Of a stretch of 64,000 bases of DNA, positions 7,559 to 36,938 are shown piece after piece. The stretch is taken from contig WHUZ01000106.1 of the NCBI GenBank assembly GCA_015179045.1, positions 1-64,000 on the forward strand, given 5' to 3'. The notes beneath the pieces are model-generated. The model saw nothing but the letters and a program-made list of their open reading frames with translations. It was not told the origin of the DNA and searched no databases. The position numbers and the translations under genes were made by a program. This DNA comes from Kalaharituber pfeilii. Taxonomy: Eukaryota > Ascomycota > Pezizomycetes > Pezizales > Pezizaceae. Position 1 is the stretch's first letter. Every line of letters begins with the position of its first letter.

Positions 7559-7614
7559 CCGTATTAACTCACTTAAGAGGCAAAACCCAAACATGCGCTA
7601 GAGTGGTCTTGGCA
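7559..7614. repeat. Left terminal inverted repeat of element T
   Basis: The first 22 bp are identical to the reverse complement of the right end, and the next 34 bp are related (shared end gtggtcttggca). Preceded by TA at 7557-7558. Confidence 0.85.
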
Positions 7615-7655
7615 GAACTTCAGATACTATTTGATCGTGCTAGCGCGTGCTTGGG

Positions 7656-8956
7656 TACAATATTGGGTGCCTTCCGCTAAGGATTTATATGAAATTCAAA
7701 CCAAATTTTACCAGGGTATATTTCCACTGCAAGCAGGGGGGAGTTTCTCTAAGCACTTGGACGTGAGTAAAATAATAAATCTAGAAAACTTTTTGTTATG
7801 CAGATATTTATACCTTAAATAAGCCAGTAAATAAGCTGTCAATCTACTACAAAAGACAGCATGAGCTCTCAAGCTTCAAGAGAGAGGACTACGTCTTAAG
7901 AAACAGCAGTCAAGTACTAATGTATCTAAAAAGAGAAAGAGTAGGAGGCTGAACTCTTAGTAAAAATTTTCCGCTGGAGGATAAGAATGCATTACTGGAT
8001 ATTACATATGTAAGCAGGACTAGGTACAAATGATGCAAATGTGAATTTAAATATCCTCTATATGGTATAGTTATTATAAACTATACTACTTCAGCAGTAG
8101 TGTACTCTAACTAACTGCTTTTGAAATTTATTGTTTATTGTTTATTCAAGTGAGTATTTTGAAAAGGGGGGGGTACCCCTCTTTCAAAAAATTGTTTCGA
8201 ACGCTCTACCAAACAATAAAACAGAGATACGGACCCTGGTTTTATTTCAAAGCAGGGGTTTGAATTTCGAGAAAACTTTTTTTTCCCCCTGTTTTCATGA
8301 CGCCACTGAGATTTTTCCCCTGTTCAGGTTTCGGATGATCAACTAATACTATATTATTTAGTCTATTCATAATATTACATAGCATTGTACGCCAATGCAA
8401 TAAATCCTTAATTCTACTCATATATAGTGAAATATGCAACCATTGAACCTTCAATATAATTGCATATTCAATATATAATTTCTAGTCAAATATTTTTTTC
8501 AAGTTCGCAATAAAATATGCTATCAGAATATTATATTGAACTTTAATAATATAATAAGAACTTTATTTAATCTATTTTAATATTGTGGTTCTATGTAATA
8601 TTCTCGTATTATGAACTTGAAATAAAATATGCAACTAGAATGTAAAATATATAACCAGAATATATATACAATATGCAACTAGATATATATAATATATGCG
8701 ACAAGATATATTGTATTATATGTCAATATGCGACTACATTGAAGTTCAATAGTCACATATTTTACTAGAATCAATGCCTTATTGCATTAAGATATCATGA
8801 TATGTAATATTATGAATAGACTAAATAATATAGTATTAGTTGATCATCCAAAACTTGAACACGGGAAAAATCTCAGTGGCGTTATGAAAACAGGGGGAAA
8901 AAAAGGTTTTCTGTTTGAATTTCACATAAATCCTTAGCGAACGCACCCATTTACGG
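7656..8956. mobile_element. AT-rich long-inverted-repeat element (MITE/foldback), nested near the left end of element T
   Basis: Near the left end, at 7662, gggtgcctt followed by gctaaggatttat; near the right end the reverse complement occurs (gggtgcgttcgctaaggat, read down from 8946). A second, longer pair of arms lies inside at about 8257-8382 and 8798-8922, sharing the caggggg/ccccctg tract and gatcaactaatactatatta. The centre is extremely AT rich and has no ORF. The left and right element-T ends align if this block is removed. Target duplication is uncertain (gtac or ttac). Confidence 0.6.
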
Positions 8957-9064
8957 CAAGGCATAGGGAGGAAACTGACAAACGACTTTTGGAGGTCTCA
9001 TGCGACATATAACATACGCCATCAGTATATATTATCTTATTATGAAAAAATAAAATTACTTACT

Positions 9065-9230
9065 GAAACCTTAGCGCAATGGTAAAACTATTTTGGCCTA
9101 ATAGTAGAAGCTTGCAATAGGGGCTTGGTTCAATTCCTAGTGGTACCTCTTAAGAGGCTATATACTGATTCTTACCGGCTAAGCTGAAAGTGAGAGTCTC
9201 TTGTATACTTACCTTGTTCTAAAAAAAAAA
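9065..9230 (+). mobile_element. tRNA-derived SINE
   Basis: A tRNA-like head holds a plausible A box (ttagcgcaatggtaa, 9074-9088) and B box (ggttcaattcc, 9128-9138). The region between folds as an anticodon arm (ctatt/aatag, loop with GGC, alanine-like). A short unrelated body follows, with cttaccttgttct and an A-run at about 9221-9231. A second cttgttctt plus A-run occurs near 9285. The acceptor stem is poor, so this is a SINE head rather than a functional tRNA gene. Confidence 0.55.
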
Positions 9231-9379
9231 ATTGTGTATTTAACTTCAGTCTGAAAATTCCCCCGTGCTTACCTATCTTGTTCTTAAAAAAAATCTGAAA
9301 ATGTGTATATTTAACTTTAAATCTACTGGGAACTCAAGTAATCGGTCAGCTTTTTGCTTTTCTAAATAATTAATTTATA

Positions 9380-9632
9380 ATGTAGTTGCTGCTGTAGTTG
9401 CCGCTGTAGTTGCTACTGTAGTTGCTGCTGTCCTCTACAACTACCTCAATCTTCTCAACTACCTCATCTTCTTCTCAGAACTACTTTCCGCCCTAGAACT
9501 ACTTTCCGCCCTAGAACCACTCCGCCCTAGAACCACTCCGCCCTAGAACTGCTCTGCCCTACCCGCTCTACCTTCTTTCCAGAACACCCCCACCTTCTCC
9601 CTAAAACTACCCCACCTTCAACACTTCATTGC
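9380..9632 (+). repeat. Short tandem repeats (12-bp and ~16-bp)
   Basis: Four 12-bp units of gtagttgctgct occur at about 9384-9432, followed by repeats of ccgccctagaactac. The motif (tagaactgc) recurs directly after Gypsy B1 at 31085-31110, as expected if B1 split one low-complexity region upstream of the dioxygenase-like gene. Confidence 0.6.
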
Positions 9633-10371
9633 TGTTATGGGCATGAGGTGCTCGGCTCCGGTGGGCGCTGGAAGGGACCGGATGTTACGGCTACGGTGGA
9701 GAAAATGGCGGTACCGGTGTCGTCCTGGAAGTGTGAATACGGTGGGTCGGAATGGCTATGGAGGTGTATACGGCGGACCGGAAGGGCAGCTACTCGGTAG
9801 GGAGCACGCAGCGGAGCGGACTGATTCACGGGCGTATTGAGGGAACGATAGGTTCAGAGTTATAGAGAAACTTAGGACACCACTTGTGTCTTGATTCTTC
9901 TAACTATGCTGTCGCCAGCCGGCGCTTATATAGACTTCAGCGCAGCCATACATGAGGAGTCAATAAATGAATAATTGGCTGGCCTTGCGGCGATTCCTTA
10001 TCAATGCCAATACCCGTGGTAATAGGCACACGTAACGAAAACATGCAAAAATAGTACGGGACAAAGATAATGAATGTACTAATGCATGTGCATATATAAA
10101 TAAAGCTTCTGTAATTCGAGTGTATGCATCAAGCTGCATTCTAGATGACATACTCTTCCGTAGTACTGCCCTATCTAAACAATGCAAGAATCAACAGCTA
10201 AGCCTAACAGGTGATTAGTCCGGTCAATCAGTGTTGGTCTTATGTTCAATTGCAGGGTCAGCGTTTTCCCCTTAGCGGGTAAGTCTTCACCTTTAGCCGT
10301 GGCAGCTAATTAGTAGTGGAACCCTTGCCCCTTGTCACAATGGTAGGCAAGTTTCCACCTTAGCCGTAACA
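9633..10371 (-). repeat. 3' LTR of Gypsy B1
   Basis: 739-bp LTR homologous to those at 23476-25094, 29697-30433 and 30439-31038. In transcription orientation it contains a TATA-like tctatataagcg segment (near 9925-9935). The inner edge is followed (plus reading) by ttactcccccgttt, the polypurine tract read from the other strand. Confidence 0.93.
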
Positions 10372-13300
10372 TTACTCCCCCGTTTAGGGTACTCGTCCCG
10401 AGTAACAATCACCAACAGAAAACTGAACTAATTGGGATTGTGGGTCTCATACTTTGGCTATCGACGTACCTTATACGCGAGGTAACACACAAGCTAAACC
10501 GCAGTTGCCTGTAGCCGATAGTGAGACTGGTGTGTCTTTCACTCATCATCAGTGAGCCGTTAAAAACCTTCTGGAAGACAAAACCTAGTGGGAAAAAGTC
10601 TTCGTAAGGAAAAGGTACTCACGTCAATGAACCATCCGAGTAGCATGGCCACACAGAATTCCCATTTGTACAAGATGCTCTGTCCCATGAGCCATCAATG
10701 CTTTATTGGACCGTAAGGTCCCGAAGGCTTCCTCGGATGTTGATCGTGGAACTCTCTGACAGATTCTAATGATCTACGAAGATTCTCAATCGTTTCCCAA
10801 ATCTTGTCATCTCTGCCATAGTTCAGTCATGGAAGATGTAGAGATACTATTTGGGAGTCTGTATTACACACTCTCTACAATATCAGACATTGCGCATCAG
10901 AGACTCTGTCGGTCTGGGGGTGGTAAGTGGTACAGAGTTGGAGTTCTGTAATGTCTTGTCGAAGGGCTGAGGCGAATTGTGGTCCACGTTCAGAGGTGAT
11001 GTGGCGGGTATTCCAAATTGCCTGAGGACGTCATTGAAGGTGTTGGCGACGTCTCGAGTTGTCCAAGTGTTTTTTACCGGTGTATAGTACAGCGCTGCAT
11101 TTCAGTGAACTGGTTTGTGACAACTGAAATAGCGTTAAAGCCCTTAGTAGTTCTCCAACAAAGTCCATAGCTATCTCCTCAAGGCTTCCTACTAGTAGGC
11201 ATTCGCAAAAGTCTAGTTTGCCTCGTATGTCGGTCGGCTTTGGGCTACAGGTAGGCTGCACAACCAGTGACATAATCGGCTACTCAGCCGTCCCAGTAGA
11301 AGTTCCGAGAGAGGAGTCCGATGCACACCCCAGTGTCGAGCCACGTTACTGTCGCGGCATCATCCTTATCACTTTGAATATAGTTCGTGTACCTAGCCCA
11401 TCATCGTTCCTTACCCATTCGTCACCGTTAACCCCAGGGATATCAGTTCACACGTCTTCCACTTCACCAGTCCAAGAGGAAGCATCCGCTTTGCCGTTAG
11501 GCTGACGTAATCGAATTCGGAGAGTTTCTGGCTCCGGTTGGACTGCTGGTTATTGAGGCATTGTTTGATGGTGAAGTGCGTGGTACATAGTGGACGGTGA
11601 AGACGGTGAACTTAATTCCCAATAGCTCTATCCTCTATTTGTACAATCAAGGATTGCCAAGAGTTCCTTATCGTGGATAGAGGTAGTTTCGTTTGGCAGG
11701 GGTCAGTATTCGGGAGTGGTACTCACAGGGGTGAAGGGTGGTAATGTCATTCTTAAGCTCAAGACACCAGCGAGTGCCTGATCTGAGCAGTCGGTTTTAT
11801 AATCGTCGGCAGGGATCGATCAAACTGTCGCAGTATGGGGGCACTGATGAACTTGTCTTGGAGTTCCGTAAAAGCAGCTTGCTGCTCTGCCCCCCCTAAA
11901 TAAAGGGTATGTCTCCGGTCAAGGCTTGTAAGTGGTCGGGTTGTAGTGGAGTAAATTAAATCAGCGGTAGTAGTTGAGGACGAATTGGCGGCAGCAGTTT
12001 GCAAAGCCTAGAAAGGCTTGCACCTTCTTTATCGGCTGTGGCCAGTCACGAATAGTAGAGAGTTTGACCGGTGCATCTTAATCTCGAGGCCATCAATAAA
12101 ATGACCAAGGAACATGGTTTCGTGCACATGGAACTCGCACTTTGGCGCGAGCCCATGTTTGCTCAATCTTGGTAAGCACTTTTCCACTATCCTTTTATAG
12201 TCTCGTTCGGACTTGCCTTCATAGATTAAGAGTCTAGGTACCAAACAACTCTACCGATGCAAGTGGAGATCTCATCCATTATCTCCTCGAAGGAGGCAGG
12301 TATGTTGATGAGTCCGAGAGGTATGACTGGGTACTTCGAATAAGCCTTTGGATGTGTCTGACAGCCGCCATTCGTCGTCTGACTTAATTCACATGAGGTT
12401 GTTGCCGTTATTGAGATCAAGTTTGGTAACCCATTTACCGCTTTGGGTCTTTCTGAGTAGTTCCGACGTTAATGGCAAAGGGTGTTTGTTCGGAGTGGTG
12501 AGTTCGTTTAGTGCTCTTATAATCAATGCACGGTCGGAGGGACCCATCTATCTTCCGAAAAAAATCGGTGAAGCTGCTTTTGACCTTGACCTTCGTATCT
12601 TTCCTGCTGGTAGGTGTTCGACGATATACCTCTAAAGAGCCTCATCTTCTTTCCAGGTACACTGGACCATGGGGAGGCTTCGCGTTTGGATTCTCGAAAG
12701 GGATTTCATGATCCCAGCTTTGGTGAGGAGGTAAGCGGCATATCTGTTCCTCAGAAAAAACATTAACGTATCGCGAGTACTAGTGCTCGCTTGCATCAAT
12801 CAATGGAGTATCACCCTCTTCAAGGGGATCATCAGAAAGAACCGAAAGCAACTCAACGCGAGTGCAAGGACCATCAAACGTGTAATGATGCATTCGCCGA
12901 TATCCATAACTTCGGCGTCAAAATCAAAGATAAATTCCTTACTCCCTTGATGGGAGTTCAAACAAAAGACGAAACAAAGTCAACAGAGACTTATCAGACT
13001 TTCCCGGAACGCCATTGACTTAGATACAATCAATGATGCATCCGCCGATATCCATAACTTCGGCGTCAAAATCAAAAACAAATTCCTTAATCATCTGGCG
13101 GGAGTTCAGAACAGAAGGTGAAATAAAATCAACGAATGCCTTATCAGATTTTCCCGGAATGCCAATAGAAGGTACATAATCCCAAGCGAAGGAAACAGAA
13201 TCGGGAACCAGGACGCCAGAAAAAGAAAGTGAAAACAAAAATAAAAACAAAAACGAAAGATTCACAAGAATCTTGATCATCACAGGTCTTACTTCGTGAC

Positions 13301-14269
13301 CTCATCTTCAACTCCTTACTCAGTCTGCCAAGGAAACAATCGGCACAGGGGCTGCACGGTCCACAATAGCCCTAACGGTCTTCCCAGTTTTGAATTTTAC
13401 CTCGCAACTGAGGAGGTCGCTATGACGGGGAGTCCTACACGCTGAGTAGGGTCCCCATCCACTCCAGGTTAGACAGGTTAGACAGGTCAGTAATCCTCTC
13501 GGATCCGTCGATGGCCTATGAGGTGGCCAGAGTCTGTCTTTGTCTTCTTGGGCTGTGACATCGTGATTTGAGAGAGCAGATTCATGACTACAGGGTGTTT
13601 TACTTCCCCTTTGTCTTTCTTCTTTGGCTTCGGTTTGGGTTTCTACCACTTCTTTCGCAGCATAACGTGATCTTGTACCTGATACATCGATTGCCTTTTC
13701 TCTGAGTCAGTTCTTCAGGTATGTTATTGCTCTTCTTGTTCTTCGGAGGTGGAGGTAGCTATATCGTAGAGCTGCTGCTGACAGAGGTGATGTTTGTTAT
13801 GGTGGTGGAGGGAGTGAAGCGCTTATCCCCAAGCTTTCCCAGGATGTCGGCAATGGAAACTTCCATTAGTTCTAGTTGCTTCGATACTCAAAATAACCCA
13901 CTAGAAGGTTCCAGACATCTTCCGAATGCTGGCGGAGACGTCGGAAATGAGGACAGGGTCGGGGGTCTTTGCCACGTCATTGAACTCATCGATCTCAATT
14001 AAGAAATCATGCATCCTACCCTACTGCTTGCGTCCGAATGTTTCGAGCAGCCTCAGCAATGGCTGAGGAGTCATGGAATGTCGTATGCAGCAGGGTGAGA
14101 GCTGTGGCATATAACACTGAGGGGTTCCGACGGAAAAGGTGAGGGCAGGGCCCTTCAAGCGAGAGGTTTCGTCGTCGGCAGTGATTCGCGAACTCCTGTT
14201 CCATCGTTGGACTAGGAAGAAAATTATCAAGCTCTTTTTCATCCCCATCAAACTTTTCTAGAGGGGGGA
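10372..14269 (-). pseudogene. Gypsy B1 gag-pol remnant (major part)
   Basis: Recognisable pieces from 3' to 5' of the element: an integrase fragment around 10960-11010 (RGPQFAS-like); RNase H at 11759-12004 (FTELQDKFISAPILRQFD); RT at 12029-12244 (CEFHVHETMFLGHFIDGLEI) and 12226-12420 (YPVIPLGLINIPASFEEIM then VVWYLD, the catalytic YxDD decayed); protease at 13320-13420 (VKFKTGKTVRAIVDRAAPVP, where DRAA replaces the usual D-S/T-G-A); gag C-terminal region at 14016-14269. Stops and frameshifts occur throughout, so no protein is made. A ~148-bp tandem duplication lies at about 12884-13179. The frame continues beyond the Gypsy A insertion at 22657. Confidence 0.85.
12884..13179. repeat. 148-bp tandem duplication inside B1
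   Basis: The segment beginning aatgatgcattcgccgat at 12884 recurs at 13032 with few differences. B2 has the same arrangement (starts 27632 and 27782), so the duplication predates their divergence. It covers the region just downstream of the protease motif. Confidence 0.8.
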
Positions 14270-14908
14270 TGTTACAGGCATAACTATTCTCATGCTATAA
14301 CACCGTCTTGTTTAAGTGTCGTCAAAAGGTACTACCAACTATAAAGCCTACCAGTCGGAAGTTTAGCTAACCCAATACTAGTCAGGTTCATGGTAGTGGA
14401 ACTTCTTCGGTTAAGAAGTAAGTAACTACTAAGATTAGCAATCTTGGTTACTAACTCTTCCGCCAGCTCCTGTTGTACTATTTATTGTACAATAACCTTT
14501 TCTTATCTTTTCTTTACTATTGGTCTTTGCATAGCAATTGGAGTTATGATAGTATTTTTAGATAGAGGCTTGCATTAGAGGTTTGAAGTTCTCGTATTTG
14601 TTGTCTTAGAATTCATTATAAGAGTTGGTCAAAAAGAAAGGCTGTAACTTGGCATTTTTCAGGGTCCGGCTTGATCCCCGGAATCCTTTCAAGCTGAATT
14701 TGTTAACAGCTTTGAAGAACTATATTTTGTATAAATAGAAGCCTGACCCACTGGAGTTAGAAGGGCAAGGACCCGGAACTCAACCCTAACAAATATAAAG
14801 CTTTCTTACTACCTTAACTACCTTATTTTCCGTGACATATATTTAATTATATTTCGCGGCGCACTTAGTTATTTAGTAAACGGCTTACCCTCAACGTACC
14901 CCATAACA
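14270..14908 (+). repeat. 5' LTR of Gypsy A
   Basis: Holds a TATA-like tataaata at 14730-14737 and cctaacaaatata at 14785-14797, which is complementary to the putative primer site just outside the LTR. Pairs with 22014-22651. Confidence 0.95.
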
Positions 14909-14909
14909 C

Positions 14910-14922
14910 TATATTTGTTAGG
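14910..14922 (+). promoter_or_regulatory. Putative self-priming primer-binding site of Gypsy A
   Basis: Thirteen bases (tatatttgttagg) starting one base after the 5' LTR are the exact reverse complement of LTR positions 14785-14797; the match ends on both sides. In Tf1/sushi elements the 5' end of the transcript folds back on such a site to prime cDNA synthesis. This needs a transcript start near 14785, about 55 nt after the TATA-like box. No tRNA-complementary site is evident. Confidence 0.65.
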
Positions 14923-14956
14923 TCTTGTTTCGCCACAACCTCACAAATAACCAACA

Positions 14957-17068
14957 ATGGCATCCCACGACTTCCCTGAACTCCCAAAACTCTTGACCGC
15001 TGGGAATGAACTGATCTTATGGAGATCCAAAGATGAAGTGGACTCCTCACTCAGCGCTGAAGCCGCGCAGTCAGCTCTCACCACCACACCGAGGCCAGGA
15101 CTCCGACCGCGGACTAAATCCTATATGCACCAAATGTGCATTAAGGATGCCAGAGAACTAGATTGGATTGAAGTCCAACAAAAGCGATTAGACCTACTAG
15201 TTCTTCAAAGACAAGAGAAGATCACTCTCCTACTCCCCATCCTACAGGCAGTAGACCCGGGCCATGTTAATGCGCTAATCTCCCAGTTTAACACATGGGC
15301 TTGAAATATAAGTTCACAGCTTAGGGAAACCATAGCCGAAGAAATCGAGAAAGCTCGAACAGAGATAGCTCGTCCTGTCCCGGAATCATTACCAGTGGAA
15401 ATGGACATAGACCGAAAAGAGGAACTAGAAGTTGAATTCGTCAAACAGCAATTCATCGACCTTCAGAATCAACTCAGGGCCGACGCTAACAAGTACAAGC
15501 AACGCTATGAAGCACAAATCCAAGCTGACGCCCAAGCTTGGGAAACCAAGCTTCGAGAACAGTTAACCAAGGAAAAAGCTGAATACGAGGCAACAGTCCT
15601 AGCAGCAGCGGAAAATTACCAGCTCGAAATGGAGGCTGCTAAACTTAAGTAGGAAGCGGAAACAAAGGAGAAGATTCAGAACCTAGAAAGGGAGTATACC
15701 AAGGATGCGAATGCTACTATTATCAAGTCCCTAGACGAGAAAAGATTAATGGTCGCAGCCTTGGAGTCTCAATTACAGGACACTAAAATTCTCCTTGACA
15801 AAGAAAAGACTGAGAAAAGAGGGCTGGAAGAAAAAATCACAGCCCAAGAAGGCGTTATTAGAGCCGGTCAAGGACAGATAACAGTCTTGGAAGCAGAAAT
15901 CACCTCCCTCAAGAACCAAAACAAGGAACTGCAAGATAAAGTAGTAGCCTTTGAGGTCGCACTCCCCCCATCTTAACCGCCAACTAGAACACCATCTCCG
16001 GCACGAACCGTAACCACCATCCTCTCTATCCGACTAGCACCATCTCCTCCTCCAAGAAAGAAAGCCAGGCACGAAACCAGACAATGGGATTTACCTGAAC
16101 CCGAACCCACTGGCCAGTACATCCCATTCGCCCGCCTCCCGACTCTAAGAACTTCGGATGGCAACCTGGACGGACTACAAGTATGGAAGTCCGAAGTAAT
16201 GGACTTAGTATACCTCCGAGAGCACCGCCGAACCTTTGCTGAAGAAGATACCAAAATTCTGTATGCATCCCGATCTCTAACCAAGGAGGCGGCAGAATGG
16301 CATAGCCAAAACAAACATATGTACATGGGTCCGGGGGCTCGGAGAGATACCACATTGGAGAAATGGATGGACGACTTGGCAGAGGGAATGGGAATACACA
16401 TGCAAGAGCAGCAAATGCGAGATAAACTCGACACCTATACGCAGAAGGGCAAAATCATGGACTATATCAACGCCATGAAGAAAATGAACCACCTCGCCAA
16501 TTACGACGATAAAATGTTCAAGGACAAGGTGGTCAAAGGGTTAAAAAGAAACATTGCCCAATTCTTCCTCATGCAGCAAGGAGTACCCAATGAATCGCTT
16601 GATGACTGGTGCAAACGCGTAGTAGCGGTTGGCATGCGAGACGAGCGAACAACGCAAGTTGTGGGTCACAGTGGTGATAACAAACCTAGTGGCCATTCAA
16701 AGGGGAAATAATCTTCAGAGAAGAAGAAGGACAGTGTGGAAACTACAACCTCTAAGCCCAGCCCATACCTCCCCGGCTCCTCCAAGGAACTCAGCGCCAA
16801 ATGGAAGGCTGATGGGAAATGCTCTCGCTGTAGAAGAAAAGGCCACACTTTCAGCAAATGCGTGGCTATGGAAATCATGAAGGAGTGGAAGATGACCCAG
16901 CCAACTAATCAGTCGGGTAATAAGAGGAAGAGAGATGATGACAAGAAGGAGGACAAGAAGGAGGTAAGGAAGATTAAACAAGAAAACAAAGGAGACTCGG
17001 CTGGGATACAGGCTCGCAGCCTAGCGTCACGCATCACCACCCTCGATGAATCCGAGTCGGAAAACTAG
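14957..17068 (+). pseudogene. Gypsy A gag, in one frame with four internal stops
   Basis: Frame 2 is readable throughout from ATG 14957 (after attaccaacaATGGC) to the stop at 17066, about 703 codons, with stops at 15302 (TGA), 15650 (TAG), 15974 (TAA) and 16709 (TAA). The middle is an extended coiled coil (15390-15960, heptad-rich E/K/Q). It is followed by a retrotransposon gag domain (16100-16700, with W/Y-rich helices such as LDDWCKRVVAVGM) and one zinc knuckle, CSRCRRKGHTFSKC, at about 16820-16861. The stops fit single transitions in CAA, CAG or CGA codons. The protein would form the particle and bind RNA. Length is large for a Tf1-type gag because of the coiled-coil arm. Confidence 0.85.
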
Positions 17069-18302
17069 AAAGGCAGATCTTAGCCAACGAAGTGTCTGCC
17101 CCTCCTCCTCCTCCAGTTGGCCTCACTCCTCCTCCAATCCTCGAAGGACCTCCAGCAAAGAAATCAATCATTCGCAAAGCCGAGCTAAAATGGAAGGAAA
17201 ACAGTATCTCAAAATCAGTAATGATTAGAGTATGTATCGACCCAGGAGCAGAAACGTCAATACTCTCCAACAAAGTACCAATCCCACGCATCAAAAGAAA
17301 ATTCCCCATCAAGTTCAGAGGAGCCGGCGGTGTGCTCTTACCAAACACTGGGACAGAGTATACCCCAAAGCTCCAAATGACCCTTATCGACGATACCGGT
17401 AAAGTTCATAAAGAACTCATCGACTTCGACATGGGTGATGGAGGAAAGGACTATGATGTACTCTTGTCAATGACGTGGATGGCTAGTCACCAGCCATACA
17501 TTGATTGGGACTTGGACTATGTTGAACTAAATCACGCTAAATACTCGGAACACATCAAGGCTAGGTGCTTTGAACTTTGTGAAGCGGACGAACTTTACAT
17601 GACTGAAGAATGGCAAGCAGGGCAAGTGTTTTTTGGTGGGTATATGCGTATTGTGGGACAAAAAACATCTCAAGTGCACATTTACCAAACGGAAGCTGGT
17701 GAGCAGATGACCTTTGACCTAGCAGCATGGAAGAAAAAATTCCCGAAGGTTTTTGACCCCGAGACCGCAGCAAAACTACCCCCGCATCGATCTTATAACC
17801 ACCACATACCTCTACAAGAAGGACAACAACCTCCATGGGGACCTATCTATCGACTAAGTGAGAAAGAGTTGGAGACACTTAAAGAATACATCGAACAGAT
17901 GTTAAAAGAAGGAAAGATCCGACCCTCACTATTCTCGGCAGGTGCACCCATCCTATTCGTCCCAAACAAGAATGGCAAACTCCGCATGTGTGTCGACTAT
18001 AGAGGCCTAAACCGAATCACCATTAAGAACTGCTACCCCCTCCCACTAATGGCAGAACTCCGAGACCGACTTCGCAAGGGCAAATACTTCACCGCCCTTA
18101 ACTTAAAGAACGGATACAACTTGGTATGAATTGCCAAAGGGGATAAGTGGAAGACAGCCTTTAGGACTCGGTACGGCCACTACGAATACACAGTTATGCC
18201 ATTCGAACTCTGCAATGCACCAGCAACCTTCCAGAAGTTCATGAATGAAATCTTCAAAGATATAATCGATCAGGGTTTACTGGCATACATTGACGATCTA
18301 CT

Positions 18303-22651: not shown

Positions 22652-22656
22652 GGGGA

Positions 22657-24623: not shown

Positions 24624-25094
24624 TAACTATGCTATCGCCAGCCGGCGCTTATATAGACTTCAGCGCAGCCATACATGAGGAGTCAACAAAAGAATAATTG
24701 GCTGGCAATGTGGCGATTCCTTATCAATGCCAATACCGGTGGTAATAGGCACATGTAACGAAAACATGCAAAAATAGTACGGGACAAAGATAACGAATGT
24801 ACTAATGTATGTGCGTATATAAATAAAGCTTCCGTAACTCGAGTATATGCATCAAGCTGCATTCCGGATGATACACCCTTCCGTAGTACTGCCCTATCTA
24901 AATGATGCGAGAATCAACAGCCAAGCCTAATGGGTGATCAGTCTGGTCAATCAGCATTGGTCTTATGTTCGATTATAGGGTCAGCGTTTTCCCCTTAGTG
25001 GGTAAGTCTTCACCTTTAGCTGTGGCAGCTAATTAGTAGTGGAACTCTTGCCCCTTGCCACAGTAGTAGGCAAGTTTCCACCTTAGCCATAACA

Positions 25095-28000
25095 TTACCC
25101 CCCCGTTTAGGGTACTCGTCCCGAGTAACAATCACTAACAGAAAACCGAACTAATTGGGATTGTGAGTCTCATACTTTGGCTATCGGCATACCTTATACG
25201 CGAGGTAACACACGAGCTGAACCACAGTTGCCCGTGGCCGATGGTGAGACTGGTGTGTCTTTCACTCATTATCAGTGTGCCGTTAAAAACCTTCTCCAAG
25301 ACAAAACCTAGTGGGAAAAAGTCTTCGAAAGGAAAAGGTACTCACGTCAACGAACCATCCGAGTAGCATGGCAGCACAGAATTCCCATTTGTGCGATGTG
25401 CTCTGTCCTATGAGCCATCAACGCATTATTGGACCGTAGGGTCCCGAAGGCTTCCTCGGATGTTGATCGTGGAACTCTCTGACAGATTCCAACGATCTAC
25501 GAAGATTCTCAACCATTTCCCAAGTCTCGTCATCTCTGCCATAGTTCGGTCATGGAAGATGTCAAGATACTGTTTGGGAGTCTGTATTACACACTCTCTG
25601 CAATACCAGACGTTGTGTGTCAGAGACTCTGTCGGTCTGGAGGTGGTAAGTGGTACAGAGTTGGAGTTCTGTAATGTCTTTTCGAAGGGCTGAGGCGAAT
25701 TGTGGTCCACATTTAGAGGTGACGTGGCGAGGTAGACCAAATTGCCTGAGGGCGTCATTGAAGGCGTTGGCGACGTCGCGAGTTGTCCAAGTGTTTTTTA
25801 CCGGTGTATAGTGCAGCGCTGCATTTCGGTGAACCAGTTTGTGACAACTGAAATAGCATTAAAGCCCTTGGTAGTTCTCCAACAAAGTCCATAGCTATCT
25901 CCTTCTAAGGCTTCGTACCAGTAGGCATTGGCATAAGTCTAGTTTGCCTCAGATGTCGGTTGGCTTTGGCCTTCAAGCAGGCTGCACAACCGATAACATA
26001 ATCGGCTACTTGGTCTTTCCAGCCATCCCAGTAGAAGTTCCGAGAGAGGAGTCCGATGCATACCCCAGTATCGAGCCACGTTACTCTCGTGGCATCATCA
26101 CTATCACTTCCAGTAAATACTGGTTCGGGTACCTAGGACCCGTCATCGTTCCTCACCCATTTGTCACTGTTGACCCCAGGGATATTAGTTCACACGTCTT
26201 TCCACTTTACTAGTTCGAGAGGGAGCATCTATTTTGCCGTTAGGCTTTCGTAATCGAATTCGGAAAGTCGGCTCCCGTTGGCTTGTCGGCTGTTAAGGCG
26301 TTGTTTGGTGGTGAAGTGCGTGGTGGTTAGTGAAGACGGTGAACTTAATTCCAAATAGCTCTATCCTCTATTTGTACAATCAAGGATTGCCAAGAGTTCG
26401 TTATCGTGGATAGAGGTAGTTTCGTTCGGCAGGGGTCAGTATTCGGGAGTAGTACTCGCAAGGGTGACGGGTGGTAACGTCATTCTTAAGCTCAAGACGC
26501 CAGCGAGTGCCTGGTCTGAGCGGTCGGTTTCATAATCGTCGGCAGAGATCGATCGAACTGTCGCAGTATAGGGGCACTGATAAACTTGTCTTGGAGTTCC
26601 GTAAAAGCAGCTTGCTGCTCTGCGCTCCCCAAAGAAAGGGTATGTCTCCGGTCAAGGCTTGTAAGTGGTCGGGTTGTAGTGGAGTAAATTAAGTCGGTGG
26701 TAGTAGTTGAGGATGAATCGGCGGCAGCAGTTTGTAAAGCCTAGAAAGGCTTGCACCTTCTTTTATCGGCTGTGGCCAGTCGCGAATGGTAGAGAGTTTG
26801 AACGGGTGCATCTTAATCTCGAGGCCAATAATAAAATGACCAAGGAACATGGTTTCGTGCACATGGAACTCGCACCGCGAGCCCATGTTTGCTCAATCCT
26901 GGCAAGCACTTTTCCATTATCCTTTTATGGTCTCATTCGGGCTTGCCTTCATTGATTAAGAGTCCAGGTACCGAACAACTGTACCGATACAAGTGGGGAT
27001 CTTATCCATCATCTCTTCGAAGGAAGCAGGTGTGATGAGTCCGAGAGGTATGACTGGGTACTTCGAATAAGCCGTTGGCTGTGTTTGACAGCCGCCATTC
27101 ATCGCCTGACTTAATTCACATGGGGTTGTTGCCGTTATCGAGATTGAGTTTGGTAACCCATTTACCGCTTTGGGTCTTTTTGAGGAGTTCCGACGTTAAG
27201 GGTAGAGGGTGTTTGTTCGGAGTGGTGAGTTCGTTTAGTGCCCTTATAATCAACGCACGGTCGGAGGGACCCATCTATCTTCCGAAAAAATCGGTGAAGC
27301 TGCTTTTGACCTTGACCTTTATATCTTCCCTGCTGGTAGGTGTTCGACGATATACCTCTAAGGAGCCTCATCTTCTTTCCAGGTACACTGGACCATGGGG
27401 AGGCTTCGCATCAAAATTCTCGAAAGGGATTTCATGATCCCAGCTTTGGTGAGGAGGTAAGCGGCATACCTGTTCCTCAGAAAAAATATTAACATATCAC
27501 GAGTGCTAGTGCTCGCGTGCATCAATCAATGAAATATCACCCTCTTCAAGAGTATCATCAGAAAAACAGAAAGCAACTCAACACGAGTGCAACAAACATG
27601 CTATGCTTCAGGACGCCATTGACTCGGACACAATGATGCATCCGCCGATATCCATAATTTCGGTGTCAAGATCGAAGACAAATTCCTTACCCATCTGGCG
27701 GGAGTTCAGAACAAAAGACGAAACAAAGTCAATAGAGACTTATCAGACTTTCCCGAAACGTCGTTGACTTCGGACACAATTAATGATGCATCCGCCGATA
27801 TCCATAACTTTGGCGTCAAAATCGAAAACAAATTCCTTAACCGTCTGGCGGGAGTTCAAAATAGAAGGCAACATAAAAATAACGAATACCTTATCAGATT
27901 TTCCCGGAATGCCAATAGAAGGCACATAATCCCAAGCGGAGGAAACAGAATCGGGAACCGGGATACCAGAAAACGAAAACGAAAGCAAAAACGAAAACGA

Positions 28001-29696
28001 AAACGAAAACGAAGGATTCTCAAGAATCTTGATCATCGCGGGTCTTGCTTGTGACCTCATCTTCAACTCCTTATCCAGTCTGCCAAGGAAACAATCGGCG
28101 CAGGGGCCGCACGGTCCATAATAGCCCTAACGGTCTTCCCAGTTTTGAATTTTACCTCGCAACTGAGGAGGTCGCTGTGACGAGGAGTTCTACACGCTGA
28201 GCAGGGTCTCCATCTACTCCAAGTTAGACAGTTCAGTGATCCTCTCAGATCCGTCAACGGCCTATGAGGTGGCCAGAATCTGTCTTCGTCTTCTTTGGGC
28301 TAGTCGAGAGAGTGGATTCGTGACTCTGAGGCATTTTACTTCCCCTTTGTCTTCCTTCCTTAGCTTCGGTTGGGTTTCTACCACTTCTTTTCGCAGCATG
28401 ACGTCATCTTGTACCTGATGCATCGGTTGCCTTTCTTCTGAATCAGTTCTTCAGGTATGTCATAGCTCTTCTTGTTCTTCGGAGGTAGAGGTGGCTATAT
28501 TGTAGAGCTGCTGCTGACGGAGGTGATGTTTGTCTTAGTGGTGGAGGGAGTGAAGCGCTTATCCCCAGGCTTTCCTAGGGTGTCGGCAATGGAAACTTCC
28601 ATTGGTTCTAATAACTTCGATACTCAAAATGCCCCACTAGAAGGTTCCGGACATCTTCCGAATGCTGGCGGAGACGTCGGAAATGAGGACAGGGTCGGAA
28701 GTCTTTGCCACATCATTGTACTAATACTTCATCGATTTCAGTTGAGAAATCCTGCATTCTACCCTACTGCTTGCGTCCGAATGTTTCGAGCAGCCTCAGC
28801 AATGGCTAAGGAGTCCTGGAAGGTCATACGCAGTAGGGTGAGAGCTGTGGCATATAACGCTGAGGGGTTCCGACGGAAAAGGTGAGAGCATGGCCCTTCG
28901 AGCGAGAGGTTTCGTCATCGGCAGTGATTCGCGAACTCCTGATCCATCGTTGAACCAGGAAGAAAATTGTTAAGCTCTTTTTCATCCCCATCAAACTTTT
29001 CTAGAGGGGGGAATTTTCGCAGGAGGCGGAGGAGGCGAGAAAGGCCCCTCGGCATCAACTGACTCATGGGGGTAATGAGGAGGCATCGAATCTCGGGCTC
29101 GGCGGGAGCCGCGAAGAGAGAAACGAGGAGGAAGAAGGCCCCACGGCAATACCTGAGACTCATGGGGATAACGAGAAGGCAAAGGGTCTCGTACTCGACG
29201 AGAACCGCGAGGTGAGGCACGAGGAGGAGGAGTACCCGCACCATCAATACCCGGTGGAGGAGGTCCTTCAGGATCAGGTTTTGGTGCGCCGTGCGATTTG
29301 CCGACTCGAGTCGGGGAAATTTGCAGGTTGTAGAGGAAACCGCACCATCAGTACCCAGCAGAGGAGACACTTCGGAGGAAAGCCTTTCGAACCTAGGTAG
29401 GCCAAGGAGACTGCGCTTGCTGTCATCGTTGCGGAGTCGGTACTGGCTGGAATGCTAGCTGCTGCAATATTTGATCACGCATACTTGCCGGTAGCTCGGC
29501 AACGTGTGTTATCGTGTTTTGCAGTTCTTGCTGCCTGTGAAAGAGAGGGGTGGATACATTACCTTGAAACGCTTGCTCGTTACAGAGGTTGGTGACATCT
29601 TCGGGGAGAGGTCCTCGAGGAAGAGTAGGCAGCGGATGAGCCTTCCGATACCGACATTGTGGAGGCGGGGTGGTAGGTGAAAGAGGAGCGGTGTAA
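25095..29696 (-). pseudogene. Gypsy B2 gag-pol remnant
   Basis: Minus-strand pieces: integrase-region fragment 25426-25758; RT at 26689-26886 (CEFHVHETMFLGHF then IRDWPQP) and 27162-27371 (FFRKIDGSLRPCVDYKGTKR); protease near 28063-28257 (TGKTVRAIMDRAAPAPIVSL); gag at 28915-29370 (EKFDGDEKELNNFLPG then MDQEFANHCR). Many stops and shifts. A hexanucleotide gaaaac run lies at 27970-28015 and a 150-bp duplication at 27632-27930. Shares the odd DRAA protease motif with B1. Confidence 0.85.
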
Positions 29697-30433
29697 TATT
29701 ACGGGCGTGAAGTGCTTAGCTCCGGTGGGCGCTGGAAGGGACCGGATATTACGGCTACGGTGGGGAAAACGGCGGTGCCGGCGTCGTCCCGGAAGTGTGA
29801 ATACGGCAGGTCGGAATGGCTACGGAGGTATATACGGCAGACTGGAAGAGCAGCTACTCGGCGGGGGCACGCAGCGGAGCGGAGCGATTCACGGGCGTAA
29901 TGGTGGAACGATAGGTTCAGAGTTATAGAGGACTTAGGACACCGCTTGTGTCTTGATTCTTCTAACTATGCTATCGCTAGCCGGCGCTTATATAGACTTC
30001 AGCGCAGCCATACATAAGGAGTCAACAAAAGAATAATTGGCTGGCAATGCGACGATTCCTTATCAATGCCAATACCGGTGGTAATAGGCACACGTAACGA
30101 AAACATGCAAAAATAGTACGGGACAAAGATAACGAATGTACTAATGCATGTGCGTATATAAATAAAGCTTCCATAACTCGAGTGTATGCATCAAGCTGCA
30201 TTCCGGATGACACACCCTTCCATAGTACTGCCCTATCTAAATGATGCGAGAATCAACAGCCAAGCCTAACGGGTGATCAGTTCGGTCAATCAGCATTGGT
30301 CTTATGTTCGATTACAGGGTTAGCGTTTTCCCCTTGGCGGGTAAGTCTTCACCTTTAGCCGTGGCAGCTAATTAGTAGTAGAACCCTTGCCCCTTGCCAC
30401 AGTGGTAGGTAAGTTTCCACCTTAGCCGTAACA
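29697..30433 (-). repeat. 5' LTR of Gypsy B2
   Basis: 737 bp, paired with 23476-25094. Followed by the duplicated tatac, after which the B1 LTR resumes. Confidence 0.93.
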
Positions 30434-30438
30434 TATAC

Positions 30439-31038
30439 GGCGGACCGGAAGGGCAGCTACTCGGCGGGGAGCACGCAGCGGAGCGGAGCGATTCACGGAC
30501 GTATTGAGGGAATGATAGGTTCAGAGTTATAGAGAAACTTAGGACACCGCTTGTGTCTTGATTCTTCTAACTATGCTATCGCCAGCCGGTGCTTATATAG
30601 ACTTCAGTGTAGCCATACATGAGGAGTCAACAAATGAATAATTGGCTGGCCCTGCGGCGATTCCTTATCAATGCCAATACCCATGGTAATAGGCACACGT
30701 AACGAAAACATGCAAAAATAGTACGGGACAAAGATAACGAATGTACTAATGCATGTGCATATATAAATAAAGCTTCCGTAATTCGAGTGTATGCATCAAG
30801 CTGCATTCTGGATGACACACCCTTCCGTAGTACTGCCCTATCTAAACAATGCGAGAATCAACAGCCAAGCCTAACGGGTGATCAGTCCGGTCAATCAGCG
30901 TTGGTCTTATGTTCGATTGCAGAGTCAGTGTTTTCCCCTTGGCGGGTAAGTCTTCACCTTTAGCCGTGGCAGCTAATTAGTAGTGGAACCCTTGCCCCTT
31001 GCCACAATGGTAGGCAAGTTTCCACCTTAGCCGTAACA
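30439..31038 (-). repeat. B1 5' LTR, second fragment
   Basis: 600 bp completing the LTR begun at 23337. It ends CCGTAACA at 31038 and is followed by the duplicated attgc (31039-31043). Confidence 0.93.
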
Positions 31039-31130
31039 ATTGCCCGAAACTGTCCTGCCTTCTGGAACTGCCCTTCCTTCTGTCTTCAACAATTCATTCT
31101 CTAGAACTGCAAACTACTCAAATACTATCA

Positions 31131-32142
31131 TGACTTCAACTCCAATAACTTCAACTCCTATGACTACTGCACAATTCAATCACAAATTGGATCATCTTAT
31201 TACTACTGGAGCATTTAGTGAGGATAAGGAGCATTTAGTAAGGATAAAAAGATGGCAAAGGGGTTACGACAACATATTAAGCATTTATTGTGGTGTTGGG
31301 AGCAAGAAAGAAAAGACCATCAATTCTATCAATCTCCAGCAACGATAGTATATCTAAAGTTTACACTTAAACAAGGCGATTAATATAAACTTCCTATCAT
31401 GAATCATCTTGATCTCAAAAACTTTCAACCGTTTGAAAGTGCCTCTCAACATTTAGAAGTACGAGACTCTGATAAGCTTACAGATTTCAAATTCCTGAGC
31501 ATTTTGTTACTACATTAACTGAAACCGATAACTTATTACCTTTAACAGCTACTCATCATTAAAGAAAGGTAAGTACTAACTTTATACATATATATACTAA
31601 TTGTTACTAATTTTTATTACTTTTTAGCTCGATCCTTGGGGGAAATTTGCTATTCGACATTATGCTACTTAGGCAGATTATAGTACTAAAATCTTCTACA
31701 GTAATGACTATACAAAGGATTTGCCAATATCTCAACAATGGGTGAAAAAAAATCAGCCTCTTTTTCAACACTTAGGAGATGGTTTGAAGCTCATTTGGCC
31801 TGAAGCTTATAATAAGCTTACCAATATTCAACTTCCAGAAGGTTTAGAGCTTTTAGTATATCCATGGGCTGGTATTGCTATCAATCAGGAAATGATACCT
31901 CAAGCATTCTAGAACATCATCAAGATTGGTGAAATATACGATCAGCTCCTAATACTATTATACCTTATGGAAATTATACTGAAGGTGACTTAATTCTTTG
32001 GCAGTGCCGTTATATTGTTAAATTAAGACCTGGAGATGCTTTGCTTTTTATGGGTTCTTTAATTTGTCATAGAAATGTTAATATTACTACCGGTATTAGA
32101 AATAGTATAAATTTATTTATATATAAAAGTAATATTGATTAG
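31131..32142 (+). pseudogene. 2OG-Fe(II) dioxygenase-like gene of element T, decayed
   Basis: ATG at 31131, a probable 59-bp intron at 31569-31627 (GTAAGT ... TTTTAG, with a CTAAC branch), and a second exon with LDPWGKFAIRHYAT. The C-terminal half reads EHHQDW at 31912-31929 then YGNYTEGDLILWQ and KLRPGDALLF, and ends with CHRNVN and TGIRNSINLFIY. The pattern fits the double-stranded beta-helix dioxygenase fold: HxD (His 31918, Asp 31924), distal His (32068) and Arg (32098). Lesions: stop TAG at 31670, a frame change near 31910, TGA at 31930, and further stops in exon 1. Similar oxygenase-like proteins are amplified in fungal genomes, and TET/JBP-type members travel with KDZ transposons. Membership of that subfamily is not shown here. 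Confidence 0.6.
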
Positions 32143-32159
32143 ATTAAAAGAAATCCAAT

Positions 32160-33320
32160 TAATAGAAGGAAATAGATAGGTTTTTTTTTTTTTAATTATA
32201 TAGTAATAAAATAAATTAAATTAAACTTCGTTAGTATTACCTATACTCCTCTCAACTGTACCTATACCTCTTGAACTCGTATCCATACCTATTACCTGCA
32301 CTTACACCTACTTATACATATACCAATACCTATAATGTACTATATCTGATCTTTTTTCCTTTTTTCCTTATCTGTTATTTACTCTTTCTCTTGTCTTTCG
32401 TTCTTTCTTTCTTACTTTCTCGCTTTCTCTCGCTTTCTTTCACTATCATAAATTACTTAATTTAGTAAGCAATCACTGCTGTTGCCGCGACCCTCCACAC
32501 CAGTCGCGACTCCCCACACTACTTCAATGTGACTCTCCAATCACAACGCGACTCCTCAATCACAACACGACTCCTCAATCACAACCTGACTCCATAACCT
32601 AACTCCACAACCTAACTCTACAATTGCAACAGGACTACTATACGACTCCTATATCCCACGCAACTTCTACTCAACTTCTACTCAACTCTTACTCTACTCC
32701 TACTCAACTCCTACTTGACCACTGACTCCCACTGACTTCCACTGACTTCCACTCGAGTCCTACTTGACTTCCACTCCTCTACTTCTACTCTCAACTTCCT
32801 ACCACTTCTATTCTACTCTTACTCTCAACTTCTCATTCCTGACCCCCTACTTCTCACTCTACTCTCCACTCCTGACTTTCAAGTTCCGACTTCCAAGTTC
32901 CGACTTCAGACTTTCAACTCCTAACTCCCTACTTTCTACTTCTACCCTGTGACTCCCAACTCTTACTCTTGCTTTGCAACTCCCTACTTCTACCTGACTC
33001 CCGACTCCTAACTCCTAACTCCCGGCTCCTGGCTCGCTCCCGGCTCCTGGCTCCCGGCTCCCGGCTCCCGGCTCGCTCTCCCGGCTCGCTCCCAGCTCCC
33101 GGCTCTAGCTCCCCCGACTAACTACTAACTCCTGACTCCTACTGACCTCTCTCCGACTCTACTCTCTCTCCACCAACTCTCTCCGACTCCACTCTCTCTT
33201 CGACTTCTCCAACTCCTCCGACTCCTGACCGACTCTTGATCCTTGCCTCCCGACCTCTGAGCCAGACTCCCAACTTCTAACTCCTGACTCACTTCTAACT
33301 CTCAACTCTTAATTTCTGAT
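32160..33320 (+). repeat. Pyrimidine-rich low-complexity region between the element T genes
   Basis: Runs of gactccnact-type sequence and a ctcccgg heptamer repeat (33018-33110), with poly-T and ctttct tracts at 32350-32450. No credible coding. It separates the dioxygenase-like and Clr5 genes, both on the plus strand. Confidence 0.6.
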
Positions 33321-33325
33321 TCATT

Positions 33326-35099
33326 ATGCCTCGTATATATGAGTGGGATAAATATCAAGAAGAGATATACTAGCTATATATTATAGAGGATAAATCTTTA
33401 TAAGAAGTTCTTCATATTCTCTGTGAAGATTATCAATTTACTCCTAGGTTAGTAAGAATTTATATAATATACATATATATTATCTAACTTAAAATATAGT
33501 GAACATTCTCTTTTATGTAAAACTAAGGAATGGGGTTATATTAAAAATCAATAGGATTTAATTTCAGATGAAAGGCTGATTGCACTTATTCATCAATTTT
33601 GGCTATCTAATTTTTCTCCTAAAGATATATGTTATGCATTACGCAAGCATAATTATAGTCTTACTTCGGAGCAGTTAAAAAGAATTCGTTTACATCCCTC
33701 TATGCAATTACTTACTCGTCGGTCTCCTAAATCAGATGAAGGAGAAACACTAAATCGGTTGACTTCAATACTTCAATACTATTAGAATAATGGTCAAATT
33801 ACTCGTTGGGGTATTTCGTATCTAGCACCTTGAATTCATCAATAAGGCCTTTTTATTTCTAAGTAAGTATTTATTTTTATTCTAATATATTTTTAAAATT
33901 ATACTAATTATTTTATTAGGCATGATTTACAATATCATCTAGCAGCACAGCAACCAGACATAGTGGAGCAACGATGGAGAAGTACATTGAGAAAACGTGG
34001 TCAATTTATGATCAAGGGTCCGAACCATGTATAGTCAATAGATGGCCATGATAAATTATCACGCTTTGGATTTCAAATTTATGCTGCTATTGATGCATAT
34101 TCTAGATTCATATTATGGTGTTATATCGGTCACTCTAATCGTATAGCTATATCTGTCAATAAGCAGTTCTTAAATACAGTTCAAGAATTGAATTGCATTC
34201 CAAAATTAATTCGTTCTGATATGGGTACAGAGACCTTACTTCTCTGTAATTCTCAGTTAGTTTTTAGGCGGAGCTATAAACCTCATCTGGAGTTCCGCAA
34301 AATTTACTCTTATGGTACATCTACTCGAAATCAACGTATTGAATCGTGGTGGAATCTTTTAGCAAATGCACAAACCGATACATGGAGAGCTATTTTTGTT
34401 GGTTATAAAAAAGATAGATATTTTGACGGAGGAGCAATAGATCAGGCCTGTTTTCAGTATATTTATATGGATATGATTTGTGAACATATTCATACTTTTG
34501 TCGAACAACATAATACTCATCGAATTAGACGTCAACGCTCTCGCTCTCATTATCTTCCTACCGGTCGTCCTACTCTTCTTTATTATTATCCTCCAGAAAA
34601 TGTTCGAGACTATAGAACAGCTCCTGATCCCGATACTCTTTCTATGTTACAGAATGAGGTAGATACTTATTCATTAGATGAGTATCTTCCGGCATGTACA
34701 CTTACCCTTTTTGCTCATTTCTTAGAAGCTGGGAGTTTTCCTACTTCATTCTCTTTTGAAGATGACCATTTTGCTGCTTATAAGTTTTTACGAGAAAGAG
34801 TAATATATTATATTAATAAGGAAAATAAACAGCTTATTATATTGCAACGTCCAACAGGTCTGGAAAAATGGTTGGATAAAGATATTCGGAAGGAAATTGA
34901 GCAGGAAAAAAATACATTATATAACCAAAGCTTAGAAATCACAGCCACCGATGATGAAGAAGATATATTATTTGAGCATAATGAAAATAATATTGAAGAT
35001 CTAGATGAACTTAAGTTTGGGCCAGATGAGGGAGAGGGAGACGGAGATGATGATGGCTTAGTGTTAGATGTACTGAGTATAGAGGATCTAATAAAGTAA
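33326..35099 (+). pseudogene. Clr5-domain / DDE integrase-like protein, candidate transposase of element T
   Basis: Exons about 33326-33447, 33500-33862 and 33920-35099, with introns of 52 and 57 bp (GTTAGT...ATAG; GTAAGT...TTAG with TACTAAT). The N-terminus MPRIYEWDKYQEEIY... CEDYQFTP and KTKEWGYIKNQ matches the Clr5 domain seen in fungal proteins. The third exon has an integrase-like core, SIDGHD (Asp 34041), RSDMGTE (Asp 34218) and QRIESWW (Glu 34341), a D-59-D-41-E layout. An acidic C-terminus follows. Stops at about 33371, 33402, 33553, 33782, 33833, 33842 and 34033 all fit C-to-T type changes (for example HV*SIDG for an expected Trp). The last 303 codons (34188-35099) are open. Function in moving element T is inferred from position and the triad. 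Confidence 0.65.
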
Positions 35100-35162
35100 G
35101 TATATATTTGTTAATAATTAGGATAAATTTACCTTATATTATTTCTTCACAATTTCTCCTTC

Positions 35163-36150
35163 TCATGCAATAGATTTTCCATCAGGAGAATACATACTTA
35201 AGTTCCTTTTATGTCGGATATAAGTATTAACAGGAGTAGTAGGACATAATAAGGACTTAATTGGAAGATGTCCAAAATCTTCATGACGAGTCTCTGCTAG
35301 CATAATCTTCTTATTTTCCATCTTTTCATCTTTTTCAGTATCATGGTCGGAAATAATAGGTATGCTAGCATCAAAATTCTCCGGCCACCACCAAGTTTCA
35401 TCTTCAGACTCCATAAGATTATTTTCCAAATCTGTCTTATTTTCCACTTCGTCGCCTTTCATTTTTTTCTCGCTTTTCACATATACCTATTCCAATAAAT
35501 TAATAATTTTTCATATATAAGAATATTTTTCATACCTTTGTATCTCACTGTTCCTGTACTCTTTTTTTTCCTTTTTCCTTTTCTTCTTTCACTTTTTTAT
35601 TACTCTCCAAAGAAACTATAGGAACAACCATTGCTACTGATTTAATTCCTTTCATACCTGAATTAATTTCAGAGAAAGTAAAACTAGCAATTAATTCTCG
35701 TAAAGATCCTCCTCCTTCAATCATAATAAAACCTGGCTCCACCTTCTCACTAGTGATTTCACCTATCATAACTTGAACCCTATCAGATAGATTCAATTGC
35801 CATTCCTTTTCCGAATTGCGTACAAAAAATATCCATGCAGGTTGTTTTGGTAACACCTCTATTATCAAATAATCCTGCCAATCAACAATAACAGTCTCTA
35901 AATCTGGAATCTTCCAAATTCCATGTGCTGTTTGTTTTCGCATATTGGTACCATGCTTTTGAAGATAGAGAATAACCTTGATACAAATAGGTGGTACCGG
36001 CTTAAACAAATAGGCAGAAGAAGATGAATTTCTCGAATTTCCTATATTAATAAATTTTAGTATAATAATTTTTAAAATTATATTAAAATTATACCTTACC
36101 TATCTGCAGAAATTGCTATGATTCCTTTTTATGATTTAGCTCTCTATATA
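35163..36150 (-). pseudogene. Convergent unknown gene of element T, minus strand, multi-exon and decayed
   Basis: Minus-strand pieces: an upstream exon near 36090-36150; intron about 36043-36100 (GTAAGG...ATATAG); a middle exon reading NSRNSSSSAYLFKPVPPICI to KKVKEEKEKGKKRV (about 36040-35545); intron about 35489-35537 (GTATGA...GAATAG); and a last exon with MESEDETWWWPENFDA (35480-35163). Stops at about 36123 and 35545 break it. The middle part has alternating hydrophobic segments and no cysteine pattern. I do not recognise the family. It converges on the Clr5 gene with 60 bp between stop codons. Confidence 0.4.
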
Positions 36151-36679
36151 CCTTGTCGGGCTTCAGAGAGAAATGCGCGAGGAGCTATTGCATGAGGAGG
36201 CTTGTTTGGCATGCGAGTAAGATCTTGAATTATTGCATCGTCAGGGATTGTATTTTTTTTTTTTATTGCCACTATAATGTGCTCCAGGGGGGTGGCCACA
36301 CTCGATATCGCCACATTTTCGACTATTCAAGGTAGAGATAAACTCCTCACATAAGCAATCTCTCGCAACACATGACATAGTGAGAATATGAGAATAGAAT
36401 AGAGAATATGAGATTAGAAGAGGCTAATGATAGAAGAGGCTGATAATGGAAGAGGAAGAGACTGATGATGTTTGATGAATATAAAAATAGGAAAGAATAA
36501 AGCTACGATAAAAATATATTGTATAGAAAAAAAATCTTTTATTCCCCTTTTTTTTCTTTTTGAATTAAGTATAGCTTTATTATATTTTTAAATAATTTTG
36601 TAGGCCTATGCTGCTCTTAATAAATATTTGGCTTAGTAATATATCTTTTAGACTAGATACAAGAATAGGCTCGTGCAAT
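36151..36679. other. AT-rich region inside element T, nothing recognised
   Basis: Contains a T-run with cactataatgtgctcc (36250-36285) that may be a very decayed LINE tail, and an aagaggctgataatg repeat (36415-36470). No gene. Confidence 0.35.
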
Positions 36680-36684
36680 AGCAT

Positions 36685-36938
36685 GTCGCATGTCTATTAT
36701 CAGACCTCCGAAAGTCGTTTGTCAGTTTCCTCCCTATGCCTTGCCGTACCCATTAGTATTTTTTTTTTCCTTTTTTCTTTTTTCCAGAGTCACGTCACTA
36801 TCAGTCTCCATGCTGTTGAGGTTAGCATCACGGTAATTCGGCATGCCCGTGCATAATACACGCGCACTGGCGCTAAGAGGCTTGCCAAGACCACAAAAGC
36901 GCGCGTTTGTATTTTACCTCTTAAGTGAGTTAATACGG
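36685..36938. repeat. Right terminal and subterminal inverted repeat of element T
   Basis: 36880-36938 is the reverse complement of the left terminus (last 22 bp identical). 36685-36760 is the inverted counterpart of 8948-9018 (ctccctatgccttgccgt). TA follows at 36939-36940. Confidence 0.82.

Follow-up and report, generated by a model that had tools for sequence, protein, structure and literature searches.

The 64,000 nucleotides analysed here very probably hold a nest of four layers, in which a MITE contains a terminal inverted repeat (TIR) element, then an IS3EU-type DNA transposon, then LTR retrotransposons. The nest is well delimited and all of its layers are of known kinds; what remains new is a variant of the TET-carrying IS3EU elements, known from a single broken copy. 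The DNA comprises positions 1-64,000 of the forward strand of Kalaharituber pfeilii contig WHUZ01000106.1 (GCA_015179045.1), hereafter the window, and copies were sought in the 78-Mb host genome. The nearest named relatives, in Peziza, Terfezia, Tuber and Choiromyces, suggest a host within the Pezizales. A preliminary description had placed three genes in one TA-flanked transposon, with termini fixed by its own empty site, and had proposed a distinct element class. We found that the outer termini are not the ends of the three-gene element, which is delimited by an inner pair of inverted repeats and by CCCATT (Table 1).

Table 1. Features of the nested locus, in window coordinates
Feature	Position	Strand	Remarks
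Left half of repeat R, MITE target	7351-7556		joined flanks match 43184-43476
TA target duplication of outer MITE	7557-7558 and 36939-36940
Outer MITE, left part	7559-7664	+	terminal inverted repeat 7559-7614; 7662-7664 (ATT) is the duplication of the next element
Second nested TIR element	7665-8948	+	ends GGGTGC..GCACCC; ATT duplication at 7662-7664 and 8949-8951
IS3EU target duplication CCCATT	8946-8951 (left), 36749-36754 (right)
IS3EU-type DNA transposon	8952-36748	+	27,797 bp with LTR nest, 6,386 bp without
IS3EU left terminal inverted repeat	8952-9001	+	TACGGCAAGGCATAGGGAGG..; 48/50 identical to 36699-36748
LTR retrotransposon nest in IS3EU element	9633-31038		ATTGC at 9628-9632 and 31039-31043
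Broken TET/JBP-type 2OG-Fe(II) oxygenase gene, core	31673-32142	+	H-Q-D, distal H and R kept; stop and frame change
Clr5 domain of transposase gene	33327-33449	+	PF14420, E 1.5e-10; in-frame stops
Transposase gene, remainder	33555-35099	+	integrase core 34035-35099
Third gene, convergent	35163-36378	-	several frames; N-terminal Cys/His cluster; start set by eye
IS3EU right terminal inverted repeat	36699-36748	-	pairs with 8952-9001
Outer MITE, right part	36752-36938	+	terminal inverted repeat 36883-36938
Right half of repeat R, to end of match	36939-37022		starts with second TA
Uninterrupted repeat R paralogue	43184-43476	-	empty site for MITE only

The order of the layers was fixed from their target duplications: TA, then ATT, then CCCATT, then ATTGC. 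A pogo-like MITE would have entered a TA of repeat R, and a small TIR element would then have entered the MITE with duplication of ATT. The IS3EU-type transposon would have followed into the junction of MITE and TIR element, duplicating CCCATT, and LTR retrotransposons would finally have inserted into the IS3EU-type element with duplication of ATTGC.

The outer MITE and its empty site

The TA at both sides of the outer inverted repeats was confirmed, and these repeats are identical at 50/58 positions with the TA included. The flanking halves also join into repeat R as had been described for the paralogue at 43083-43500; joined at one TA, they matched 43184-43476 with 91.5% identity over 293 columns, and the sole gap (3 bases) lay away from the join. 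As aligned, the empty site (~43266) proves the insertion of the MITE only.

The right-end DNA of the MITE (36752-36938) is dispersed through the genome, and a 24-base outer-end pattern, allowing up to three mismatches, occurred 368 times (185 + 183) compared with 0 for the control. Each of the fetched loci with right-end DNA (L024-L042; 19/19) held a short element whose other side carries an inverted copy of that repeat, and the three genes were absent from all of them. We aligned 15 of these loci, omitting L036-L039, which matched partially or over a shorter stretch. In 15/15 aligned copies, small indels aside, the MITE sequence up to ~7664 continues directly into that from 36752; therefore, 7665-36751 is an insertion within a MITE of ~288 bp.

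Five longer copies of the outer ends were fetched (L094-L098), and pogo-like transposase parts were found in two of them. L097 matched HTH_Tnp_Tc5 (PF03221) at E 7.6e-6, over the cut-off, and DDE_1 (PF03184) at E 0.0037, under the cut-off; L095 matched PF03221 at E 2.7e-4, just under the cut-off. When compared by eye, L098 resembles L095 and L094 has only an N-terminal stretch in common with the L095 frame, and L096 carries a different frame without a Pfam match. The ends of L095 agree with the outer ends in the window over the outer 24 bases only. The extended end sequence of L097 is nearly the same as the outer end in the window, but its second end is a direct, not an inverted, copy. The outer layer has the features of a pogo-like MITE, namely the TA duplication and ends common to copies with a pogo/Tc5-type transposase. 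Pogo-like Tc1/mariner elements and MITEs share with it the TA duplication, long inverted repeats and longer copies with HTH_Tnp_Tc5/DDE_1 parts; the likeness is confined to 7559-7664 and 36752-36938, and the three genes lie outside it.

The TIR element of the second layer has relatives in which 3-bp duplications are legible by eye (7/7 shown). These duplications are of ANT type (ATT, AAT, AGT) in all seven. The window copy is about twice the size of its relatives and contains an internal inverted repeat (8270-8479 / 8715-8912).

The IS3EU-type element, its transposase and the third gene

The ends, duplications, gene content and decay of the IS3EU-type element were observed directly. Its ends read TACGGC..GCCGTA, and CCCATT is made up of CCC, the end of the 7665-8948 element, and ATT, the target duplication of the same element. 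The right-end DNA recurs at further places in the genome, and a 20-base end pattern with up to three mismatches gave 75 genomic matches compared with 2 for the reversed control. From these 75 matches, 13 end pairs were picked, the window included. The 6-bp duplication was exact in 5/13 pairs (window, C325, C294 and two on C112), five of its six bases were found at C35, and the pair on C309 had an 8-bp repeat; six pairs (C295, C328, C334, C304, C316 and C24) were without a duplication. The 8-bp direct repeat that stands in place of the 6-bp one in the C309 copy (C309:10778-11798, L044) reads GGAACCAG.

Third-gene DNA lies inside the C35 and C325 copies, which have both ends, and inside the C303 copy, in which the left end alone is intact. 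The C24 and C112 copies (4.6 and 5.5 kb; L080, L081) were checked for the three genes, and the sole match was one of 36 aa to the third gene, in C24. The interior of the C295 and C309 copies is deleted with a common break, the left part reaching to ~31093 and the right part starting from ~36237; because the break is shared, these copies look like one non-autonomous subfamily. Alignments of L044 and L049 run through the LTR insertion site ungapped, those of L046 and L047 span it at greater length with gaps, and three of the seven copies tried stop short of it.

The gene with a Clr5 domain and an integrase-type DDE core, named in the preliminary description, was recovered. The Clr5 match was obtained with X substituted at two stops, and the integrase core matched PF24764 (rva_4) at E 5.1e-22. 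The catalytic residues are D 34041, D 34218 and E 34341; the earlier D-59-D-41-E holds as differences in position (59 and 41), the residues in between numbering 58 and 40. In Peziza echinospora, Clr5 and integrase core lie within one 546-aa gene model (P0011), and transposase homologues were also found in Zymoseptoria and Hydractinia. The PF24764 profile matched the host genome four times at E 0.1, two of the matches being fragments, and the integrase homologue P0005, compared with the PDB, had a best E of 0.47. Our literature search returned no paper joining Clr5, integrase core, transposition and fungi, and the sole match to the accession PF24764 concerns Micrococcus in its available text. 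By analogy with integrase-type transposases, the enzyme would bind the inverted repeats, excise the element and insert it into target DNA through cuts staggered by 6 bp.

The third gene is present on the opposite strand, as had been noted, and had no match in Pfam. One homologue was found, P0053 of Peziza echinospora, which lies, like the integrase homologue P0007, on a contig of length 720,197. Because the two contigs agree in length, the third gene and the integrase appear to travel together as a pair in this species. The family (window and P0053) has a Cys/His cluster of the form C..C-x-C..CGD..CGHP-x-G-x-H and a conserved core, MRK..IWKI.D..DW..Y. We rejected alpha-kinase as its identity, given no Pfam match and the lone homologue P0053; a genome search with PF02816 (alpha-kinase) gave 0 matches, and it says little because control genomes also gave 0.

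A sister element on C339 (L019:774-4992) has the left end, a Clr5 part and a 422-aa open integrase frame, 61% identical over the core. Its third gene occupies the same convergent place as a 363-aa frame (39% identical), a single frame over most of its extent. There is no oxygenase between its left end and Clr5, and no right end was found for it. Retroelement-like sequence comes after this element. The copy in the window is dead, and all three genes are broken: the oxygenase and the Clr5 part contain stops or frame changes, a stop lies ahead of the integrase core, the third gene is split among several frames, and the LTR nest parts the left end from the genes.

The oxygenase remnant

The dioxygenase-like gene of the preliminary description proved to be a Tet_JBP remnant. 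Its upstream homology starts near 31449 by eye, and the remnant, when read through, matched PF12851 at E 4.7e-5 with 23.1 bits, below the Pfam cut-off of 34.9. Seven homologues were found at 55-64% identity, one of them from Terfezia boudieri; six of the seven match Tet_JBP with E no higher than 0.01, and H-Q-D is present in 8/8 aligned rows (window remnant and homologues). A profile of this family, compared with the PDB, matched Naegleria TET (E 6e-5), and the alignment paired the H-x-D, the distal H and the R; the family has the TET/JBP 2OG-Fe(II) core motif (H-x-D/E ... H ... R). The H-x-E hallmark of the PE type, as taken from its description, was absent, with H-x-D in the window remnant and 7/7 homologues. 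Close copies of the remnant were not found elsewhere in the genome. The assignment of the oxygenase to the element rests on its place between left end and transposase, since no other IS3EU copy compared carries one. A literature search for TET JBP in Terfezia found no paper with the term in its available text. KDZ transposons with TET/JBP genes were reportedly described by Iyer et al. in 2014; there, too, the oxygenase lies inside a transposon, whereas the window transposase is integrase-like (PF24764). An intact oxygenase would oxidise 5-methylcytosine in the DNA of the element and so counter silencing, a role proposed in PMC12730594.

The host genome contains a second TET/JBP family (L065-L079), with 30 PF12851 matches at E 0.1, of which 17 are above the Pfam cut-off. 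In the 15 loci read, the family lies within a dispersed repeat with apparent tandem repeats upstream, judged from the self-BLAST pattern. Their metal-binding motif is H-K-N, not H-K-D, in 13/15, and 14/15 have an open frame of 220-229 aa; the family is apparently an inactivated oxygenase that went on multiplying.

Relation to known elements and alternative readings

Judged by its sequence, the three-gene element fits IS3EU in its 6-bp duplications, its TAYGG..CCRTA ends and its Clr5 plus integrase-type transposase. Ends of the form TA..TA and duplications that are usually of 6 bp are described for IS3EU elements (PMC10045372, available sections). TET/JBP-carrying IS3EU elements have been published for seven species of rust fungi and for a truffle, Tuber indicum, and those of the rusts have 6-bp duplications, TAYGG..CCRTA ends and inverted repeats >30 bp (Kojima 2025, PMC12730594, as excerpted). 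The window element agrees with the rust families in each of these, having CCCATT, TACGGC..GCCGTA and inverted repeats of 48/50 bp, and it likewise combines a transposase, a TET/JBP gene and a further gene opposite to the transposase. The element is therefore not a new class, as had been proposed, because TET/JBP-carrying IS3EU elements are already published. In the elements of the excerpted account, the TET gene lies between the transposase and alpha-kinase genes, whereas here the order is oxygenase, transposase and third gene, and the third gene is without an alpha-kinase match. The Tuber indicum element is counted there as PE (Pezizomycete) type with the hallmark H-x-E, in contrast to H-x-D in the window, the two being compared by description. 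PMC12730594 was the only paper found on IS3EU in Pezizomycetes. Styx, which is IS3EU-related and was followed in Zymoseptoria tritici with 1A5 as a parent strain, also has an integrase, 6-bp duplications and further genes of unknown role; it differs in accessory genes with GATA and CCHC motifs and DUF3577, and no TET is named in the available sections (PMC10853768).

We weighed other readings against the four-layer nest. The three genes do lie in one transposon, between one pair of ends, but these are not the TA-flanked pair. A single TA-flanked transposon of a distinct class, carrying the genes between the outer 56-bp ends, would account for the outer inverted repeats, the TA and the empty site, all of which are real; however, the outer ends bound short MITEs at 19/19 loci and accompany Tc5/pogo-like transposase parts in 2/5 longer copies (L095, L097), the inner end set is complete with a 6-bp duplication, and the MITE is unbroken across the join in the aligned copies, which makes this reading extremely improbable. 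Among the copies seen, outer termini without the three genes, some of them with parts of another transposase, are the observation that the preliminary description had itself named as refuting. We also consider it very unlikely that the transposase should be assigned to GingerRoot, or to a different integrase-like superfamily, instead of IS3EU. IS3EU and GingerRoot, which share 6-bp duplications and in most cases TA..TA ends, are placed in a single lineage (PMC10045372, available sections), but the TACGG..CCGTA ends fit the description of fungal TET-carrying IS3EU elements in the excerpts of PMC12730594. In addition, the homologue P0043 comes from Zymoseptoria tritici ST99CH_1A5, 1A5 being a parent strain in the Styx work, and may be the Styx transposase.

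Less remote, although still unlikely, is that the oxygenase is the remnant of a further small insertion between the IS3EU left end and the transposase and not cargo. The C339 sister without an oxygenase at this place and the absence of the gene from every other copy compared speak for such an insertion. However, no credible inverted repeats frame the gene (the best of three pairs had 18 nt at 83% and was A/T-rich), it points the same way as the transposase, and PMC12730594, as excerpted, describes IS3EU elements with TET/JBP genes inside. The points that count against the four-layer nest as a whole are the single close copy of the oxygenase, the 6/13 end pairs without a duplication, and the C339 sister without an oxygenase or a found right end.

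The locus shows that, where insertions are nested, an exact empty site can still be credited to the wrong element. It is quite possible, although we hold slightly more doubt than confidence, that a Pezizomycete IS3EU lineage acquired an H-x-D TET/JBP gene, placed upstream of the transposase, in a capture separate from those of the Tuber indicum (PE type, H-x-E) and rust elements; this would add another TET type and gene arrangement. The TET/JBP gene of the published elements is hypothesized to remove or mark 5-methylcytosine (PMC12730594, as excerpted). If the oxygenase in the window is cargo, the element would represent a second Pezizomycete TET/JBP IS3EU family beside the one named in that excerpted account, with another catalytic motif and position, and it would bear on how frequently transposons capture DNA-demethylating enzymes to escape silencing.
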